The notes beneath the pieces were generated by a model that worked only from the letters and a program-made list of their open reading frames with translations, had not been told where the DNA came from and ran no database searches. Of a stretch of 39,257 nt of DNA, positions 8,674 to 28,925 are shown piece by piece (position 1 is the first letter of the stretch; the number at the start of each line of letters is the position of its first letter). The DNA comes from a virus. The stretch spans positions 1 through 39,257 of the IMG/VR virus record IMGVR_UViG_3300008105_000027; one strand, 5' to 3'. The position numbers and the translations under genes were made by a program.

Positions 8674-9258
8674 CTATAATATTTTTACTCTGTTATGTCC
8701 TATTCTCTCACGAATCTCAGTAGATGTCAAGATAATATCCATACCATTAATGTATGCGAACTTCTGTTCTTCTGTGAGTGCTTTACGTGCTGATGTACTA
8801 TTTAGTAAGTACTTGTTAAATGCTGTATTAAATTTAGGCTCAGTTACTAATAGCCCATCCCTATCTGCTATACGTGGGGTGTGGAATAGAACCACTGCTG
8901 GACTATTTATGTATATATGATCTGCGTGAGCTAGTATGATTGCCCCGGCAGACATTACATATTTAGGTACAATGATATCGAAGCTTCCTGTAATGCTTCT
9001 CAGTAGAGCAATTACATCTACCATAGATTCTAATTCTCCGCCATAAGTAGTTAGATTAATGCAGGGTTTGGAAACCTTTCCCAACAGCTGTTTCTTTACA
9101 CTATCTACCATTTGCTGGTTTACCTCACCATTATATATTACACATGAATTAGCATCGATAGGCTCTGGCTCGGCGTATTGATAAGCAGTATAAAGCATTG
9201 ATGTGGATATTGCCACTGCGCTTACTAATACTATTGCTTGTTTGAATATTGTATTCAT
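8674..9258 (-). CDS. ClpP/SppA-fold serine protease with N-terminal membrane or signal segment
   Basis: A 194-residue protein. Residues 8-25 are hydrophobic (IVLVSAVAISTSMLYTAY) after a short KQ-containing start, so the rest is probably periplasmic, anchored or secreted. The body has the ClpP/crotonase-like layout: NLTTYGGELESM (oxyanion region), KYVMSAGAIILA (nucleophile S103), VVLFHTPR (H126) and GMDIIL (D174), spaced as in ClpP. It is too divergent to call ClpP itself; SppA-like or NfeD-like membrane proteases are alternatives. It sits next to ERF, and the canonical ClpP is 1.6 kb upstream. Target unknown. Confidence 0.75.
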   Translation of the reverse strand: MNTIFKQAIVLVSAVAISTSMLYTAYQYAEPEPIDANSCVIYNGEVNQQMVDSVKKQLLGKVSKPCINLTTYGGELESMVDVIALLRSITGSFDIIVPKYVMSAGAIILAHADHIYINSPAVVLFHTPRIADRDGLLVTEPKFNTAFNKYLLNSTSARKALTEEQKFAYINGMDIILTSTEIRERIGHNRVKIL

Positions 9259-9266
9259 ATTATCCT

Positions 9267-9533
9267 CTATATCAGAGATCTAACTACTAGATTATCATAT
9301 AATTTTAAGTAGTCAATATCTATTTGTTTACATATATCTCTTAGATAGTCGCTATTAAAAAATTCCTTAGCGTCTTTTCTTAGAAATCTATCTGAAGATT
9401 GTAAGTCTATTATACCGTAAACAATTACTGCTAACCACAGTCTTTTATATTCGGATCCGTAATCATCTTGTCTAAGCTGGTTCTTTCTAAGTGTATCTAA
9501 TATCTCTAGTAAATCGCTTACATTAGTTTTCAT
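9267..9533 (-). CDS. Hypothetical protein, 88 aa
   Basis: A helical protein starting MKTNVSDLLEILDTLRKNQL, with charged and aromatic residues and no membrane segment. The start at 9533 is preferred because GAGG lies 9-12 bases upstream; a longer frame to 9554 includes that site. It is the first gene after a minus-strand promoter-like sequence at 9563-9589. Function unknown. Confidence 0.65.
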   Translation of the reverse strand: MKTNVSDLLEILDTLRKNQLRQDDYGSEYKRLWLAVIVYGIIDLQSSDRFLRKDAKEFFNSDYLRDICKQIDIDYLKLYDNLVVRSLI

Positions 9534-14638: not shown

Positions 14639-15646
14639 ATGATTAACAATTTATACAACATCAGAGACTTAGATCCCGACGTTAAGGTTTATCTAGAACC
14701 ACAGTTTAAACGTACACGTAAACCATCAGATTTGGTAGCAGAATTAGATAAGTTTGTTATTGGTCAAGATGCAGCTAAAAAGGCATTAGCTATTGCTATG
14801 GTTAACCATGAGGTTATAACTGAACACAATAGAAGGATTAAGAAGTCTGAAACTAGATTAAAGAAAACTAACTTAATGCTAGTAGGACCATCTGGTACAG
14901 GTAAGACATACTTATTAGAGGTTATAGGGCGTACATTAGGAAAGGACGTAATGGCCGTAGATATATCATCTTACACTCAAGCAGGCTATGTTGGTAGAGA
15001 TCTAGACTCAATTATAACTGAGGCATGTGCTAGGTGCGACGATAATCCCGAAAGAGTGGAAAACATGATCATCTTCTTAGATGAGGTTGATAAGCTATCA
15101 GACCAAGAGGGCGTAGGTAAGGTCGGTACATTGGCCGTACAACAACAACTACTAACCCTTATTGAGGGTCAAGAGGAGTATAATGTAACCAATGATAAAG
15201 GACGCAATACCGGCTTCCAAGTCGACACCCGTAACATCCTTTGGGTACTAGGTGGCGCATTCACTGCGTACAGAGAATCAGCTATTAAGAAACTTAAGAA
15301 CCCTACCACAATAGGCTTTGCTACGGAAACCAAAGAACCAGAAGAGTTTGTGTTCGATCAACAACAAGCTATTAAAGCTGGATTACTAAGGGAATTAGTA
15401 GGGCGTATAGGGCAAGTTATAGAGTTACATGACTTAAGCAGAGAAGAGTGCTACAGAATTATGGTAGAACCAGTAGATTCTATAGTTAATCAGTATAAGA
15501 TATTAGGGGAATTAAGAGGATTAAATCTAACACTAACCGAGAAGGAGATCTGGGATATAGTGGACGAAGCAATCCGCTTAAAGCTTGGTGCACGTGGATT
15601 AAGGACACTGGCAGACAAGTTAATGAAAGATCGTATGTATATATAA
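14639..15646 (+). CDS. ClpX/HslU-like AAA+ unfoldase lacking the N-terminal zinc domain
   Basis: A 335-residue AAA+ protein. DKFVIGQDAAKKALAIAM (box II), Walker A GPSGTGKT (83-90), pore loop GYVG (116-119), Walker B IIFLDEVDK (144-152), FQVDTRNILWVLGGAF as in ClpX, IGF (225-227), arginine finger GR (255-256) and sensor-2 GARGLR (317-322). IGF is the ClpP-docking loop of ClpX, so pairing with ClpP is expected. The ClpX zinc domain and the HslU I-domain are both absent; GYVGRD is HslU-like. Substrate choice probably lies in the pore or needs adaptors. It follows the lysozyme by nine bases. Confidence 0.9.
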   Translation: MINNLYNIRDLDPDVKVYLEPQFKRTRKPSDLVAELDKFVIGQDAAKKALAIAMVNHEVITEHNRRIKKSETRLKKTNLMLVGPSGTGKTYLLEVIGRTLGKDVMAVDISSYTQAGYVGRDLDSIITEACARCDDNPERVENMIIFLDEVDKLSDQEGVGKVGTLAVQQQLLTLIEGQEEYNVTNDKGRNTGFQVDTRNILWVLGGAFTAYRESAIKKLKNPTTIGFATETKEPEEFVFDQQQAIKAGLLRELVGRIGQVIELHDLSREECYRIMVEPVDSIVNQYKILGELRGLNLTLTEKEIWDIVDEAIRLKLGARGLRTLADKLMKDRMYI

Positions 15647-18895: not shown

Positions 18896-18907
18896 CATAA
18901 TAGAGTA

Positions 18908-20113
18908 TTGAGTAGAATACCTATCAACGAGATGATCTTTAGAGCGCTACAGTGTCAGAAGAACAGACCGCAGTACGCCTATGTTGCCCCAGAGAAAGCG
19001 CAAGCTAAGAAGATTGTATGGGGTATAATGAAGGACAACACAGGCTTCCTGCCTGACGTGAAGTATAATGAGGCCGAGTTAAAGGTAGAGTTCACTACAG
19101 CTGGTGGTACGAAATGTACTATCTATGTTGAGGGCGCGGATGACCCAGCGCGTCTGCGTGGGATGTACTTTGATGGAGTTGTACTGGATGAGGTTGCACA
19201 GATGCCCGAAGAGATTTGGGATAAGGTATTGATGCCAGCCCTAACCGATAGAGATGGATGGGCAATATTCATTGGTACACCAGAAGGGAAGAATCTATTA
19301 TATAGGCTGTACCAGAGAGGCCTTAAAGAGGATGCTCGAAACTGGTATTCACATTTATTCAAAGCCAGTGAAACTGGCATATTCACTCACGAACAACTAA
19401 AAGACTTTAGAGACGAGATAGGTGATGAGGCATATAACCAAGAGTATGAATGTTCTTTTGATGCGGCAGTTAAAGGTACATATTATGGTAAGAACTTGGC
19501 CATGCTCAAGGAGCAGGGCTTTGTAGGTAATTACCCATGGGACCCTTCCCTACCTGTATTTACTGCTTGGGATATCGGTGGTAATGATCCTACTGCTATC
19601 TGGTTCGCGCAGCAAGAGGGGGACACTGTACGTATTATAGATTTCTATCAAGGACAAGGTCCCGATGTATCATACTACATTAATATAGTATTAGCTAAGC
19701 CATATAAATATAAGAAGCATATATTCCCTCATGATATGCACCAGAATCACTGGGGACAGGGTAAGACTAGGTTAGAGCAGGTAAGAGGTGGTTTAGGTAC
19801 GCACCATATCCAGGTGCTCAAGAGAACGCCAGTAATCGATGGTATAACTGCAGTTAGATCTTTGCTACCTAGATGTAGGTTTAATGCACCAGTAGTTGAT
19901 ACAGGACTTGATGCACTATTCTTATACAGATCTGACTATAACTCTACGACTGGTGTATATAATCAGCAGCCTAAGCACGACTGGACGTCTCACGCAGCGG
20001 ATAGCTTTAGGTATCTTGCATTAGGGTTACGAGAATTGCCTAAAGATCTATTCGATGAATTTGGTGTTAGTAAGCAATATTCTTCGTATGACGACTATAA
20101 TCCGCTTGACTAA
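18908..20113 (+). CDS. terL: Terminase large subunit, N-terminus with Walker A missing
   Basis: A 401-residue packaging ATPase/nuclease. It contains YAYVAPEKAQAKKIVW, the GADDPARLRG block, Walker B GVVLDE (D94, E95), motif III FIGTPEGKN, nuclease start FTAWDIGGNDPTAIWF and the late HAADSFRY Asp. In relatives the Walker A (HRRAGKT) lies immediately before the segment aligning with RIPINEMIFRAL; here the frame begins there. The upstream frame closes at TAG 18878, the TTG start lacks a ribosome site, and no ATG occurs until codon 9. So the 5' ~50 codons are elsewhere, spliced, recoded or lost by misassembly. Confidence 0.85.
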   Translation: MSRIPINEMIFRALQCQKNRPQYAYVAPEKAQAKKIVWGIMKDNTGFLPDVKYNEAELKVEFTTAGGTKCTIYVEGADDPARLRGMYFDGVVLDEVAQMPEEIWDKVLMPALTDRDGWAIFIGTPEGKNLLYRLYQRGLKEDARNWYSHLFKASETGIFTHEQLKDFRDEIGDEAYNQEYECSFDAAVKGTYYGKNLAMLKEQGFVGNYPWDPSLPVFTAWDIGGNDPTAIWFAQQEGDTVRIIDFYQGQGPDVSYYINIVLAKPYKYKKHIFPHDMHQNHWGQGKTRLEQVRGGLGTHHIQVLKRTPVIDGITAVRSLLPRCRFNAPVVDTGLDALFLYRSDYNSTTGVYNQQPKHDWTSHAADSFRYLALGLRELPKDLFDEFGVSKQYSSYDDYNPLD

Positions 20114-20166: not shown

Positions 20167-20505
20167 ATGGGAGCTCTTACAGCATTATTTAGTTCTATTG
20201 GCGGTGCCGCAGGCGGACTATCTGGATTAGGTAGCATAATATCCGCAGCATCATCGTTCATAGGTAGCGGAAACGATAGGGAAGTGTCTATGCCAAATCA
20301 AGTCAGCATGGCTCCAGCTACAGATGCACCAACCGTACCAGCAGAACCAGCTCAAGTAATGACGGCTGAAGAATCAATCCAAGCACAAGATGAGGATAAA
20401 CGTCGTCGTCTATTAGCACAACAAAAAACCAATTCAAAATCCAATACATTAGCTGGTAATATACAAGAGCAGCCTAAGACTGGATCTACATTACTAGGAG
20501 GCTAA
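20167..20505 (+). CDS. Small pre-portal protein with TLLG-type tail (1 of 3)
   Basis: A 112-residue protein: a Gly/Ala/Ser-rich hydrophobic N-terminus (MGALTALFSSIGGAAGGLSG), a Pro/Ala middle (APATDAPTVPAEPAQV), a basic DEDKRRRLLAQQK segment and the end GSTLLGG. Small proteins with Gly-rich starts and LLG ends are common before the portal in related podoviruses, but no function is known to me. The next two genes share the same tail. Confidence 0.65.
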   Translation: MGALTALFSSIGGAAGGLSGLGSIISAASSFIGSGNDREVSMPNQVSMAPATDAPTVPAEPAQVMTAEESIQAQDEDKRRRLLAQQKTNSKSNTLAGNIQEQPKTGSTLLGG

Positions 20506-20506
20506 T

Positions 20507-21124
20507 ATGGGAGCACCAGGAGGCGGTGGAGGTGGTAGCGGCTTTGATTACACCATGGGTGGCAGAAGTTACACTGATAATGATAATAGAGTTGTTGTAG
20601 GCTATCTAAACGAAAAAGATGCTATGACTGGACCTTATAACATGTCCAATAATTCTGCCCCTGTATTCCAAAGTATGGCAGATTATAATAAAAACTCACG
20701 TATAGTAGATGATACTATACGAACAGGTGGTTACGACGCGTTAAAGAATTTAGTTAATAAAGATCCATATGCGTATTATGATATTTCTAAAACGATCTTA
20801 TTAGGATATACCTCACCAGAATCGCACCAGAGTTATAAAAATTTATATTCAAACCTAGGCGATCTTAATAGGGAAACTGCCTTTGGTCAGGACTCAATAT
20901 TTAGTAATTTCAGTGCTGCCCGCGACGCATCACAAAAACCAGCGGCATCTAGTAGCGCACCTAGTGGCACAGGTCCAGCAGTACCAGCGCCTAGACAAAC
21001 AGGTGGCTTAGATACTCCTGAGGCCCTACTAACGGATTCGCAGAAAGAAGAACGTAGAAGAAAAGAATTAACGCCAGATTCTGGCAATCTATTATTAGGA
21101 ACAACTACATTATTAGGAGGATAA
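20507..21124 (+). CDS. Small pre-portal protein with TLLG-type tail (2 of 3)
   Basis: A 205-residue protein. A glycine-rich start (MGAPGGGGGGSGFDYTMGG), a folded-looking centre rich in Tyr and Asp (DPYAYYDISKTILLGYTSPE), a Pro/Ala/Ser linker and the end LLLGTTTLLGG. It starts one base after the previous gene stops and uses the GGAGG within that gene's last codons as ribosome site. Structural or assembly role inferred from position only. Confidence 0.65.
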   Translation: MGAPGGGGGGSGFDYTMGGRSYTDNDNRVVVGYLNEKDAMTGPYNMSNNSAPVFQSMADYNKNSRIVDDTIRTGGYDALKNLVNKDPYAYYDISKTILLGYTSPESHQSYKNLYSNLGDLNRETAFGQDSIFSNFSAARDASQKPAASSSAPSGTGPAVPAPRQTGGLDTPEALLTDSQKEERRRKELTPDSGNLLLGTTTLLGG

Positions 21125-21125
21125 T

Positions 21126-21356
21126 ATGGGTGGTTTATTTTCAATGTTTGGTGGCGGAGAGCAGGAATCAGCCCCAGTATATCAACAAGCTCCGGCAGCA
21201 GCTGCACCAGCGCCTGTACAAGCAGCGGCAGTTCAAACTAATAATGTGGATACTCCAGTAGGCGGAGAGGATGCATTAAAGAAAAAGAAAAGGGTTGCCG
21301 TACCAGCAGGTAGCACGACTCTTACAGAAGGCTCTACAACGCTATTAGGAGCATAA
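21126..21356 (+). CDS. Small pre-portal protein with TLLG-type tail (3 of 3)
   Basis: A 76-residue protein: MGGLFSMFGGGEQESAPVYQ start, an Ala/Pro-rich centre, a KKKKR patch and the end GSTTLTEGSTTLLGA, in which the tail motif is nearly doubled. The previous gene's TLLGG codons (ttaggagga) supply the Shine-Dalgarno sequence. The low-complexity body suggests a flexible protein. Function unknown. Confidence 0.65.
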   Translation: MGGLFSMFGGGEQESAPVYQQAPAAAAPAPVQAAAVQTNNVDTPVGGEDALKKKKRVAVPAGSTTLTEGSTTLLGA

Positions 21357-21358
21357 CG

Positions 21359-22948
21359 ATGGATGAAAATCATAAATTAATAGGACAGTTTGTTGCCAGG
21401 TTTGACAAGCTTAAATCCGAGAGGGCTACCATTGAAAATACATGGCAAGAGATTGCAGACAACTGCGTATCTAATGGCGCCGACTTTACTAGTACAAGAA
21501 GCGCTGGGGATAACTCAAGAACCAGACGTATATTTGACATAACCGTAATACAAGCAATTGACTATCTTGTATCAGCATTACATAGCGGCTTAACCAACCC
21601 ATCTACAAAATGGTTTGAATTAAGAATGAAGGATAGTGTTCTAAGCCAAGATCCGGAGATCGCAGCATTCCTAACTAAGGCTAGGGACTATATGCTAGAT
21701 TGTTTTAATAGCTCATCATCTGCATTCCCTGGCCAGAATCACGAAGTATTGCTATCTTTAGTTCAGTATGGACCAGGATGTCTACTTGTCGAAGATAACG
21801 TTGAAAAGGGCATTAGATTCTCAGCAATACACATTTCAGAAGTATACATAGCTCAAAATGCATTCGGCATTGTAGATACCGTATATAGAAAGTTTCAAAT
21901 GACTGCTCGCCAAATGGTACAAAGATGGGGCGATGCTGTGCATAGATCTGTTCAGGATGCCTATAAAAAGAATCCCGATACCAAGTTTGAAGTATTACAC
22001 GTAGTAGAGCCTAAGTCTGATAAATATCAGCCTAAGAATAAACTACATAATTTCGTGAGTTATCACATCGATATAACTAATAAGAGCTTAATATCTGTTG
22101 GCGGTTACTTTGAAAGCCCATATATTATAGCTAGATTTAGTAAGTTCTCCTCCGAGGATTATGGGAGGTCTCCAACCTGGCAGACCCTACCGACAGTCAA
22201 ACTTGTAAACAGAATGACCGAAACCATAATCAAGTCCGCTCAGCTACAGGTATCCCCTCCTTTACTACTAGCTGATGACGGAGTTATGATGCCAGTTCAG
22301 GCCAAACCAAATGGCGTCATATATGGCGGTATATCAATGGATGGTACGGCGCGAGTACAACCGCTCAACGTCGGAGGAAACCTAAACATCGGTGCTGAAA
22401 TGCTTGGTCAATTCCAAAAGCAGATTAGGGACTCATTCTTTGTTGATCAATTAGTATTTAGGGATGGTCCTATGATGACCGCTACCGAAGTAATACAGCG
22501 CCAACAAGAAGCATTGAAATTGTTAGGTCCAGTAATTGGAAGGCTACAAACTGAATACTTAACTCCATTAATTGCTAAGATATTTTCTATATATGCGCGT
22601 AGTGGTAAGTTAGGCAGGATTCCACAAAAAGTTCTTGAGAATGAGTATGAGATTGAATACGTAGGTCCAGTACCTATGTTACAGAAGCAGCAAGAATCTG
22701 CTCAGTTCAATCAGTTCATAGGTGCGGCAAGCTCTTTGATACAACTTAACCCAAGTACCTTAGATAACTTTGACTTAGACGTTGCAGCCCGTAAGATGGC
22801 TGATAGCTTGGCTATATGGAAAGATGTTGTACGTCCAGTTGAAGATGTAGCTAAGATTAGAGAAGCTCAGGCGCAAGCTCAACAAGCTCAGATGGCTATG
22901 CAATCAGCTGAACAAGCTGCTACTATTAACTCAATCATGAATAAGTAG
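21359..22948 (+). CDS. Portal (head-tail connector) protein
   Basis: A 529-residue protein of the T7 gp8/podovirus connector type. TRRIFDITVIQAIDYLVSAL and SGLTNPSTKWFEL near the N-terminus, FSKFSSEDYGRSPTWQTLPT in the middle and TEVIQRQQEALKLLGPVIGR toward the C-terminus are the conserved connector segments. The C-terminus is an Ala/Gln-rich helix (AQAQAQQAQMAMQSAEQAAT). Forms the ring through which terminase pumps DNA. It starts two bases after the third TLLG gene. Confidence 0.92.
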   Translation: MDENHKLIGQFVARFDKLKSERATIENTWQEIADNCVSNGADFTSTRSAGDNSRTRRIFDITVIQAIDYLVSALHSGLTNPSTKWFELRMKDSVLSQDPEIAAFLTKARDYMLDCFNSSSSAFPGQNHEVLLSLVQYGPGCLLVEDNVEKGIRFSAIHISEVYIAQNAFGIVDTVYRKFQMTARQMVQRWGDAVHRSVQDAYKKNPDTKFEVLHVVEPKSDKYQPKNKLHNFVSYHIDITNKSLISVGGYFESPYIIARFSKFSSEDYGRSPTWQTLPTVKLVNRMTETIIKSAQLQVSPPLLLADDGVMMPVQAKPNGVIYGGISMDGTARVQPLNVGGNLNIGAEMLGQFQKQIRDSFFVDQLVFRDGPMMTATEVIQRQQEALKLLGPVIGRLQTEYLTPLIAKIFSIYARSGKLGRIPQKVLENEYEIEYVGPVPMLQKQQESAQFNQFIGAASSLIQLNPSTLDNFDLDVAARKMADSLAIWKDVVRPVEDVAKIREAQAQAQQAQMAMQSAEQAATINSIMNK

Positions 22949-22955
22949 GTAATAG

Positions 22956-23255
22956 ATGTTAGATAGAATTAGGAATATATTTAATTTATCAAAGCCTAAA
23001 TCAAGTAATATTGAGCTGGCTAAGGCCTATCAAGATGTATTGGCAACTGAATCTGGTAAGAAGGTCTTGACCGACCTCCTAAAATTTAGTAAAATATATG
23101 ACTCAACGTTTGTACCAAGCGATTCACATACAACTGCCTTTTACGAAGGTATGCGTAGAGTAGGCTTAAGAATAGCTTCGTTGATAAACGTAGACGTTAA
23201 TGATAAACAAAACCACGGGGAAATAAATGATGGATTCGAATCAAACGATCTCTAA
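22956..23255 (+). CDS. Bbp19-like head protein
   Basis: A 99-residue protein between portal and scaffold. AYQDVLATESGKKVLTDLLK, then a Phe/Asp loop and AFYEGMRRVGLRIASLI match the small Bbp19-type phage domain (ayxxvfxsexGxxvLxdL ... xxxeGxRxvxlxI). Conserved location but unclear function. Its end overlaps the scaffold start by 29 bases. Confidence 0.75.
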   Translation: MLDRIRNIFNLSKPKSSNIELAKAYQDVLATESGKKVLTDLLKFSKIYDSTFVPSDSHTTAFYEGMRRVGLRIASLINVDVNDKQNHGEINDGFESNDL

Positions 23256-25733: not shown

Positions 25734-26288
25734 ATGGCATCAGTAACACAAATATGTAATAGGGCTTTAATAAGACTTGGAGCCAGTACAATCACAGATA
25801 TAACAGAGAACTCTAAGGAAGCGCGTTTATGTAACATTATTTATGATCAGGTTCGTCAAGAACTTTTAAGATCACACCCCTGGAATTTTGCAATACGTAG
25901 AGCAACCCTAGCTTCCGATACAGAATATCCACCATTTGAATTTTCATACCAATATAGTTTACCATCAGATTGCTTACGTGTATTATCTATGGTTGATAGC
26001 GCAGAAAACTATAAATTAGAAAATAATAAAATACTAACCAACGAAGCAGTAGTAGACATTCTTTATATAGGCGATGTTGAGGATCCAACTCAATTCGATT
26101 CCCTGTTTAATACATTATTAGTATTGCGTATAGCTATGGAATTAAGCTATAATATTACCGGAGCTACCTTTGTATACTCAGCTATTCAATCTGAATTTAA
26201 CCAGGTTAGACGAGAAGCTAAGCTATATGACGCACAAGAGGGTACACCATTAGATTTTGGAGATGGCGACTGGTTAGGGAGTAGGTAA
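25734..26288 (+). CDS. Tail tubular protein A (T7 gp11-like)
   Basis: A 184-residue protein: VTQICNRALIRLGASTITDI, ICNIIYDQVRQELLRSHPWN-like LCNIIYDQVRQELLRSHPWN, then FSYQYSLPSDCLRVLSM, the hallmark pattern of the podovirus gp11/adaptor family. It bridges portal and the tail nozzle. AAAGG ribosome site. Confidence 0.92.
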   Translation: MASVTQICNRALIRLGASTITDITENSKEARLCNIIYDQVRQELLRSHPWNFAIRRATLASDTEYPPFEFSYQYSLPSDCLRVLSMVDSAENYKLENNKILTNEAVVDILYIGDVEDPTQFDSLFNTLLVLRIAMELSYNITGATFVYSAIQSEFNQVRREAKLYDAQEGTPLDFGDGDWLGSR

Positions 26289-26291
26289 ATA

Positions 26292-28925
26292 ATGGCAATT
26301 GTAAATTACATTCAGGCTAGCTTTGCTGCCGGAGTACTAACACCTAAACTAGCAGGACGTACTGATCTATCTAAATACAAGACAGGATTAGCATCATTAC
26401 ATAACTTTCTAGTATCACCATATGGATGTGTGTTTAGAAGGCCTGGGACACGCTTTGTAGAGCCAACAATAAGTACCAGTAATATATCCCGCCTAGTAAG
26501 ATTTGAATACTCTAACGAGCAAGCTTATCAGATAGAATTTTCTGCAGGTAAGATCAGATTCTATAAAGACCAAGGTCAGATCTTAAGAAGTAGAGGTATA
26601 ACTAACGGAACATTTACTTCAGGTATTTCAGGATGGACATCCAATAATGCTGGTACGGGAACTATTTCATGGGATGCTGGTAACCAAAGATTAAGTTTAA
26701 ATGGTGGTGGCGGTGCCAACTATGCTCGCGCCTATCAAGCAGTTGCTAATATAGGCTTGGGTACATTTACTATAACAATGGACGTAGTCACATCTACAAT
26801 AACTTATAGAGTAGGAACTTCTGTAGGCGGATCGTCCTTAGCTACAGGAACCCTAACTGCTGGTACTGGAAAAACATTTAACTTCACTGTTACTGCAAAC
26901 TCTACCGTATATATAGAATTTGAATGCGCTTCTACAGCAGGTATAGATAACATTGTTTTAAACACAGGTAATATCTACGAAATAGATATACCATATACCA
27001 ATAGTGAAATAAACGATTTAAGATTTGCACAATCTTTCGACACACTGTATATTACACATAGGTCTTACGTACCAAGACAACTTCAAAGACTTGGACATGA
27101 TAACTGGGTACTATCAACTGTATTATTTATTGAGCCTCCTTATCTAGATGAAAATACATCAGATACGACAATAACACCAAGTGCTACGACTGGATCCGTA
27201 ACTGTAACAGCCTCATCTGCTATATTTGCTTCAACTGATGTTGGTAGGGCTATCCGATATAAATCCGGACCAGATAGATCTGATGTAACCAATTATACTG
27301 GAACTGGTACACAAACCTACTTTGATATTCCCTTTTACCCACAAGGACCTAGCGATCTAGTAGTAAGTTTTATAGAAAGTTCAGGCGCTCGTACTGCCAA
27401 AACCTATACATCTGGAGCTCCGGGTGCTGGTCAATTTACTATAACTAATGGTCAGATTCGTACTGGCGATACGGCCTCATCATCACAACGTGTTGAGATA
27501 TCTCCGGCATATGCTGGATCCGGAGAGTGGGGATGGATGAAAATAACCGCATATACATCATCTACACAAGTTACAGCCCTGGTACAAAAAGACTTAGCTG
27601 GTACTAATGCATCCACAGAATGGAGGTTAGGTGCTTGGTCTGAGACTACAGGGTACCCACGAGTTGTAGTATTCCATGAACAAAGACTATACTTTGCTAA
27701 TACAGAAAATCAACCACAGACATTCTGGGGCTCGGCAATTGCTGACTACACTAATTTCCAACCAGATAATGTTTTGTATAAAGGTGCTATTGATAACGAT
27801 ACCTCAGTATCCTTTACATTAGCCGCAAATAACTCACAGGCAATAAACTGGTTAGCTTCTAAGGGAGCATTAATAATAGGTACAAGTAACGCTGTATTCT
27901 CTGCTAAGGGAAGTAGTGGATCTATAACGGCATCTAACGTATCAGTTAAAAAAGAAGCCGATATACCGACAGCATTTACACAGGTCGCAGAAACTTATAA
28001 TGAAATTATATTTGTTGAGAGCTTGGGGCAACGCGTCTACTCTGTATTTTACTCTTTCCAATTAGACGGTTATGACGTACAAGAACTAACACTACTATCA
28101 GATCATTTAGGTAAGATAAGCCCAATATTAGAAATTACCTACCAACCTACCTCTAAGATATTGTGGGCTAGACGTGAGGACGGAACTCTATTGAGTTGTA
28201 CCTATATCCGTAACCAAGAGGTTATTGGATGGGCTACTCACAGCATAGGGGGCACTGATTCTGATGTACAATCAATATCAGTTATCCCAGGAGCTACATA
28301 TAGTGAGTTGTGGATGGTTGTAAATAGATCTGGCATGCCATCTGGATTCAGTAGAACTATTGAGTTTATGACACAGGAGTTTGACAACGAAGAAAAAGAA
28401 GATGCTATATTCCTAGACTGCTCCTTAACTTATAACGGCACATCATCTACATCTATCAGTAACCTTGATCACGTAGCCTCTGCTGAAGTATCTGTCTTAG
28501 TAAATGGCTCTGTCCATCCTAATGTAACAGTTAGCTCCGGTGGTGTGGCTACATTAAGTATTGGTGCAACTAAAGCTACATTCGGATTTGGATATGAGTC
28601 ATATTTAGAAACTATGAGTATAGAAGCTGGATCTAAAATAGGATCTGCACAGGGTAGTATAAGTAGAATATCAGAAGTTAGCATACGTTTCTTTGAAACT
28701 ATAGGCGCTAAAGTAGGCTTCGATTCTAACTCAATAGACATCATACAGTTTAGAGAATCCAATGATTTAATGAATACATCTCCAGATCTATATAGTGGAT
28801 TTAAAATAATTAAATTTAACTCTGGATTTAACCCAGAATATAAGGTATACTTAAAGCAAGATCAGCCGTTACCAATTACGGTATTAAATATTGTATTTAA
28901 GGCCCAGATATCAGATGCACAGTGA
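26292..28925 (+). CDS. Tail tubular protein B (T7 gp12-like) with inserted carbohydrate-binding-like domain
   Basis: An 877-residue nozzle protein. The N-terminus ASFAAGVLTPKLAGRTDLSK and the LHNFLVSPYGCVFRRPGTRF stretch are typical of gp12. Residues ~100-235 hold an extra domain (NGTFTSGISGWTSNNAGTG ... STAGIDNIVLNTG) that looks like a CBM4/9-type beta-sandwich. Then DIPYTNSEINDLRFAQSFDT resumes the canonical fold, with GYPRVVVFHEQRLYFANTEN further on. Forms the tail nozzle; the insert could bind surface sugars. Confidence 0.9.
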   Translation: MAIVNYIQASFAAGVLTPKLAGRTDLSKYKTGLASLHNFLVSPYGCVFRRPGTRFVEPTISTSNISRLVRFEYSNEQAYQIEFSAGKIRFYKDQGQILRSRGITNGTFTSGISGWTSNNAGTGTISWDAGNQRLSLNGGGGANYARAYQAVANIGLGTFTITMDVVTSTITYRVGTSVGGSSLATGTLTAGTGKTFNFTVTANSTVYIEFECASTAGIDNIVLNTGNIYEIDIPYTNSEINDLRFAQSFDTLYITHRSYVPRQLQRLGHDNWVLSTVLFIEPPYLDENTSDTTITPSATTGSVTVTASSAIFASTDVGRAIRYKSGPDRSDVTNYTGTGTQTYFDIPFYPQGPSDLVVSFIESSGARTAKTYTSGAPGAGQFTITNGQIRTGDTASSSQRVEISPAYAGSGEWGWMKITAYTSSTQVTALVQKDLAGTNASTEWRLGAWSETTGYPRVVVFHEQRLYFANTENQPQTFWGSAIADYTNFQPDNVLYKGAIDNDTSVSFTLAANNSQAINWLASKGALIIGTSNAVFSAKGSSGSITASNVSVKKEADIPTAFTQVAETYNEIIFVESLGQRVYSVFYSFQLDGYDVQELTLLSDHLGKISPILEITYQPTSKILWARREDGTLLSCTYIRNQEVIGWATHSIGGTDSDVQSISVIPGATYSELWMVVNRSGMPSGFSRTIEFMTQEFDNEEKEDAIFLDCSLTYNGTSSTSISNLDHVASAEVSVLVNGSVHPNVTVSSGGVATLSIGATKATFGFGYESYLETMSIEAGSKIGSAQGSISRISEVSIRFFETIGAKVGFDSNSIDIIQFRESNDLMNTSPDLYSGFKIIKFNSGFNPEYKVYLKQDQPLPITVLNIVFKAQISDAQ

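Follow-up and report, generated by a model that had tools for sequence, protein, structure and literature searches.

Three tail-bearing genes upstream of the portal gene

The window, a 39,257-nucleotide stretch of viral DNA (IMG/VR record IMGVR_UViG_3300008105_000027), carries three neighboring in-frame open reading frames on the + strand that encode proteins of 112, 205 and 76 amino acids and terminate in GSTLLGG, TTTLLGG and STTLLGA, respectively. One base lies between neighbors, and two bases lie between the third and the start of the gene encoding the portal, or head-tail connector (21359..22948, +; phrog_332 and PF12236, E 1e-115). Profile matches on the same strand identify the genes of the tail adaptor (phrog_394; 25734..26288) and the tail nozzle (phrog_376; 26292..28925), and the three small genes adjoin portal, protease and capsid genes. 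Directly 3' of the portal gene, positions 22956-23255 encode a Bbp19-like protein (PF25181, E 3.5e-12), as in BPP-1-type phages. A separate observation concerns the large terminase gene, where comparison of positions 18903-18940 with positions 1885-2082 of the L001 record shows that 160 nt between GAGTAGAATACC and TATCAACGAG are present in L001 and missing in the window. This gap takes out the start of the large terminase together with its AHRRFGKT (Walker A-like) segment, while 997 of 1000 nt upstream of it are identical; it is either a deletion or an assembly artefact.

Each of the three proteins carries a basic patch, a degenerate internal motif and the C-terminal tail, all on the + strand; the patches, and the motifs of proteins 2 and 3, were read directly from the translations, and the tails were delimited by translation and tail statistics. 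Protein 1 (20167..20505) has a hydrophobic, Gly/Ala-rich N-terminus, and its orthologue in the L003 sister lineage is identical at 51 of 111 residues and has the same tail. Its patch KRRR (20398..20409) is followed by SNTLAG (20440..20457), which aligns with STILTG in the phrog_831 proteins, and by the tail GSTLLGG (20482..20502). Protein 2 (20507..21124) ends LLLGTTTLLGG, with the patch RRRK at 21053..21064, the motif SGNLLLG (compare SGTMLTG in BPP-1 bbp22) at 21080..21100, and the tail TTTLLGG at 21101..21121. Its N-terminal region of about 130 residues is extra, and an AlphaFold model of the protein made with no alignment supplied was uninformative (pLDDT 38.5). The gene is absent from L003, where the genes for proteins 1 and 3 adjoin and both products bear the tail. 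Protein 3 (21126..21356) is Ala/Pro-rich, ends GSTTLTEGSTTLLGA and matches phrog_24981 weakly (E 7e-4); it contains the patch KKKKR (21279..21293), the motif GSTTLTEG (21309..21332; TSSLLSSDTG in the L003 orthologue) and the tail STTLLGA (21333..21353).

The bodies of these proteins had been described in the initial annotation as otherwise different and non-aligning. Their likeness is indeed only distant, but they are not wholly unalignable: when the last 20 residues are removed, pairwise local scores exceed those of 496-498 of 500 shuffles, because each of the three has a Pro/Ala-rich stretch and, C-terminal to it, a basic patch, as is also the case in phrog_831 proteins. The three proteins are therefore probably divergent paralogues of one family, protein 2 having the extra N-terminal region.

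The sharing of the tail is not due to chance. The expected frequency of [ST]TLLG at this position is about 4e-6 per ORF, and the tail pattern matches no further ORF of the window. A profile of seven residues, anchored at the C-terminus and trained on relatives without the window's own lineage, ranked the three ORFs 10th, 13th and 15th among the 4,825 ORFs of the window and 17 isolate genomes. Scores of at least 11.7 were obtained in this set exclusively by small pre-portal proteins or by a relocated counterpart in phage BUCT708. The profile and the ORF translations together confirm that one tail is borne by three adjacent small pre-portal proteins.

A widespread family of pre-portal proteins

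The phrog_831/phrog_4566 superfamily has a recognizable design, consisting of a Pro/Ala-rich body or linker, a basic patch, a short [ST]xLLxG(xxG) motif and a terminal xLLGx, which the window proteins follow loosely. They match neither the phrog_831 profile nor an unanchored HMM of the module significantly (best E 0.56 for the latter), and membership is therefore placed by architecture, position and tail. Their genes lie between terminase and portal, the position typical of the superfamily apart from the tail/ejection gene block, and their products end in [KST]xLLGx; of the internal GRxSTILTGxxG motif they carry degenerate versions alone. On these grounds they are predicted to be divergent members of the superfamily.

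That an LLG-type end occurs in small pre-portal proteins of related podoviruses, as stated in the initial annotation, was borne out. The same slot holds phrog_831 proteins in these phages: epsilon15 encodes gp3 (..RSSTLLTGAQG..GKTLLGQ), BPP-1 encodes bbp22 (..GTMLTGPQGV..KSTLLGQ), and HTVC010P encodes gp03 and gp04, two tail-bearing proteins in tandem; Shamal, AF and EcoM_APEC also have a tail protein there, and Vibrio phage 1.021 has one in the pre-portal region with one gene intervening. Searching IMG/VR via the portal gave about 80 relatives, most of which carry the tail in the pre-portal slot. Members lengthened like protein 2, and with a significant phrog_831 C-terminus, are encoded by HTVC028P (217 aa) and by MW202898 (255 aa). 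Across the 17 isolate genomes a strong tail is essentially confined to small pre-portal proteins, the other case being BUCT708 (phrog_4566; 9059-9340), in which the pre-portal slot has no gene and the tail protein is encoded next to the nozzle gene, on its 3' side, as part of the tail/ejection block. The family, listed as being of unknown function, is thus represented both in the model phages epsilon15 and BPP-1 and among marine pelagiphages, which are abundant. Among the papers listed by full-text literature searches, none contained the TLLG string and none named bbp22.

Counted with a loose tail pattern, and with many loci incomplete upstream, the number of tail proteins per locus is one in 38 loci, two in 36, three in 6 and four in 1. 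Three in a row, which had appeared striking, lies in the upper part of this range, but three or four are also found in relatives. The window is a three-copy addition to a widespread known family; against the background of that family it is no surprise, and its novelty is modest.

Other small proteins share this region. A protein of about 142 residues lies between two pre-portal tail proteins in L029, L030, L033, L070, L091 and Baldr (L017), the Baldr copy being annotated as a putative acetyltransferase. Charged proteins of 53-61 residues ending KSSLTFGK sit between tail-bearing proteins in L065, L074, L083 and L099. In L024, L025, L038 and L064 a further family of small pre-portal proteins was observed; its members end KTTMLG[VI] or RTTM[LM]RV, contain GxPRN internally and perhaps carry a variant of the xLLGx module.

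The tail may also have reached another protein family. A very common basic family of about 50 residues (phrog_16028 type) normally ends in Lys or Arg; of the 82 loci that could be scored, L069, L145 and L097 have KKTLLG or KKTLMG at its end, and all three contain the portal along with other tail proteins. The only other scorable locus with a tail-like end on this protein is L156 (KSLLS), and in L179 the portal and tail-protein neighbors are present beside a phrog_16028-type protein without the tail. Transfer of the tail to this family is possible on the basis of these sequences and, because L069, L145 and L097 are related, may represent one event.

A candidate docking peptide and its alternatives

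Placement in virions is documented for one member. Gp3 of Pseudomonas phage vB_PaeP_YA3, which ends SSTILGGALGTPATTATKTLLGG and is encoded between terminase and portal with one ORF intervening before the latter, was identified by mass spectrometry in purified virions, at a low content below gel visibility (PMC7326022). A second guide is T7, whose genes for gp6.7 and gp7.3 occupy the same pre-portal position as the window's tail genes. In the T7 head interior, gp6.7 binds the portal barrel and core in twelve copies, whereas gp7.3, in six copies, is anchored on the nozzle gp12 by a C-terminal loop (residues 84-98 of 99), with K84 and K85 contacting the DNA end (PMC11784390). The phrog_376 nozzle profile gives a weak match in T7 as well, located in the gp12 region (E 1.6e-13). 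The position of these T7 genes, the nozzle match and the post-nozzle gene of BUCT708 together favor docking in the portal-nozzle channel.

On balance, we think that the window proteins may well be low-copy virion proteins with a flexible body, whose C-terminal module docks in the portal-adaptor-nozzle channel. Together, the [ST]xLLxG motif and the terminal xLLGx would make up a bipartite docking peptide holding the protein at a site that recurs in this channel, most plausibly in the lumen of the nozzle or of the adaptor, and the basic patch would touch DNA. A protein so docked could aid tail completion and DNA retention and exit early in ejection, like T7 gp7.3 and gp6.7, and the three copies would suggest several equivalent or stacked sites that accept different bodies on the same plug. 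The docking site, the DNA contact and the ejection role are those that we infer from gene position and from the analogy to the T7 pair. A docking tag for the portal or capsid, as suggested in the initial annotation, is the best available explanation on circumstantial grounds, namely T7 synteny, one virion member and the tail on a different protein family in a few loci; the site is the part supplied by analogy.

Genome scans of phiVC8 and Alteromonas phage ZP6, whose portal, adaptor and nozzle belong to the same families, revealed no tail protein, and the module is therefore not obligatory. Two refinements were discarded: a dependence of docking on a single nozzle type, because phiVC8 has a phrog_376 nozzle yet no tail protein, and a fused adaptor as the cause of absence, which fits phiVC8 only and not ZP6.

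The tail could instead direct the proteins to the head. Encapsulin cargo-loading peptides are short, C-terminal and found on different bodies, and the tail resembles them in these respects, although its consensus differs. By analogy, it might be a packaging tag read inside the prohead, on the major capsid protein, the scaffold/protease or the portal exterior, with the head rather than the tail channel as destination. The adjoining portal, protease and capsid genes, the presence of YA3 gp3 in virions and the location of T7 gp6.7 inside the head are compatible with such a tag. We nevertheless consider it unlikely, as binding to all capsid subunits fits poorly with the low content of YA3 gp3 and the BUCT708 gene follows the nozzle among tail/ejection genes, away from the head genes.

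The initial annotation had also proposed that the tail is a signal for a phage ClpX-like unfoldase. A degradation signal of this kind, read by such an unfoldase or by host proteases, could limit the proteins or clear them after ejection; positions 14639-15646 of the window encode a ClpX-like AAA+ ATPase (AAA_2 plus a weak ClpB_D2-small match), and host proteases are reported to degrade T7 gp6.7 and gp7.3 after ejection (PMC11784390). The proposal is weakened because 17 of 20 records, most of them tail-bearing, have no phage ClpX-like gene (AAA_2 was found in the window and the L003 and L007 contigs), and because residues may follow LLG. Several members have 3-14 residues beyond it (SSLLGGKKV in L017, TLLGGSKRTRSPGG in L072, SLLGGGTPRKAGKQGA in L077), which a degron read from a free C-terminus would not tolerate. 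YA3 gp3, moreover, accumulates in virions, and we regard a degradation signal as improbable, although one read by host proteases may still operate. The L003 record (54.7 kb) has two copies of the ClpX-like gene and may be composite.

It is more improbable still that the tail is a functionless relic of recent tandem duplication. The bodies are distantly alike and tandem members are common, but the tail persists beyond body likeness across phages whose portals are 25-45% identical, and in loci with tail proteins a tail-like end also occurs on a protein of a different family.

The tail codons overlap the ribosome site of the next gene in the first two window genes (TTAGGAGG/AGGAGG; the first tail reads CTAGGAGG), whereas the third has just TTAGGAGC. 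We analyzed the codons of 99 tails that had been selected for containing LLG, and the comparison therefore addresses codon freedom, not frequency. Six codons are used for the first Leu, six for the second and four for Gly (GGA 55, GGT 26, GGC 11, GGG 7). Of the 99 tails, 52 have a Shine-Dalgarno core overlapping the LLG codons and 47 have none there; in 8 of these 47, LLG is kept although no gene begins within 25 nt. AGGAGG occurs in or near 8 of the 99. Least probable of all is thus the view that Shine-Dalgarno supply maintains the codons with the peptide as a by-product, since the overlap noted above is set against free variation of the Leu and Gly codons, retention of LLG in tails lacking it, and an internal STILTGxxG motif too far upstream for such a role. 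These patterns indicate that selection acts on the peptide and that its codons often double as a ribosome site, which may bias codon choice (TTA-GGA). The initial claim that the tail itself is selected thus holds at the protein level; the accompanying idea that ribosome sites partly explain its conservation retains the overlap, including the two window tails, but not as the main cause.

A possible address label and its relation to known systems

A broader reading, which is tentative and which we regard as doubtful, is that xLLGx serves as a general C-terminal address label in podoviruses of the epsilon15/BPP-1/HTVC010P type, movable among unrelated small proteins that would share the same repeated socket of the tail channel. 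If so, a phage could stack several different cargo proteins in the tail channel for early delivery. The module offers a testable handle on the placement of small ejection or tail-channel proteins in non-T7 podoviruses, and could possibly be used as a cargo-loading peptide for phage particles.

Members of phrog_831 and phrog_4566 are the nearest known counterparts of the window proteins, sharing the pre-portal slot (after the nozzle in BUCT708), the Pro/Ala-rich body, the basic patch, [ST]xLLxG and xLLGx; the window differs in having three proteins, a degenerate internal motif, a short spacer and no significant profile match. YA3 gp3, the member found at low content in virions, shares the slot and the C-terminal module and differs by the additional ORF before the portal. 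A match to pelagiphage HTVC019P gp27 was not significant, and this candidate was rejected as a sequence homologue. By sequence, the family profile matched no solved structure significantly, the best PDB match being a gp6.7-like chain (E 0.24). Comparison of the family with T7 gp6.7 and gp7.3 gave hhalign probabilities below 1%, with no detectable sequence homology, and the window proteins did not match the corresponding Pfam families (PF17570, PF11653). The T7 pair lacks the xLLGx end; nonetheless, these small virion proteins resemble the window proteins in gene position, size and low-complexity basic character.
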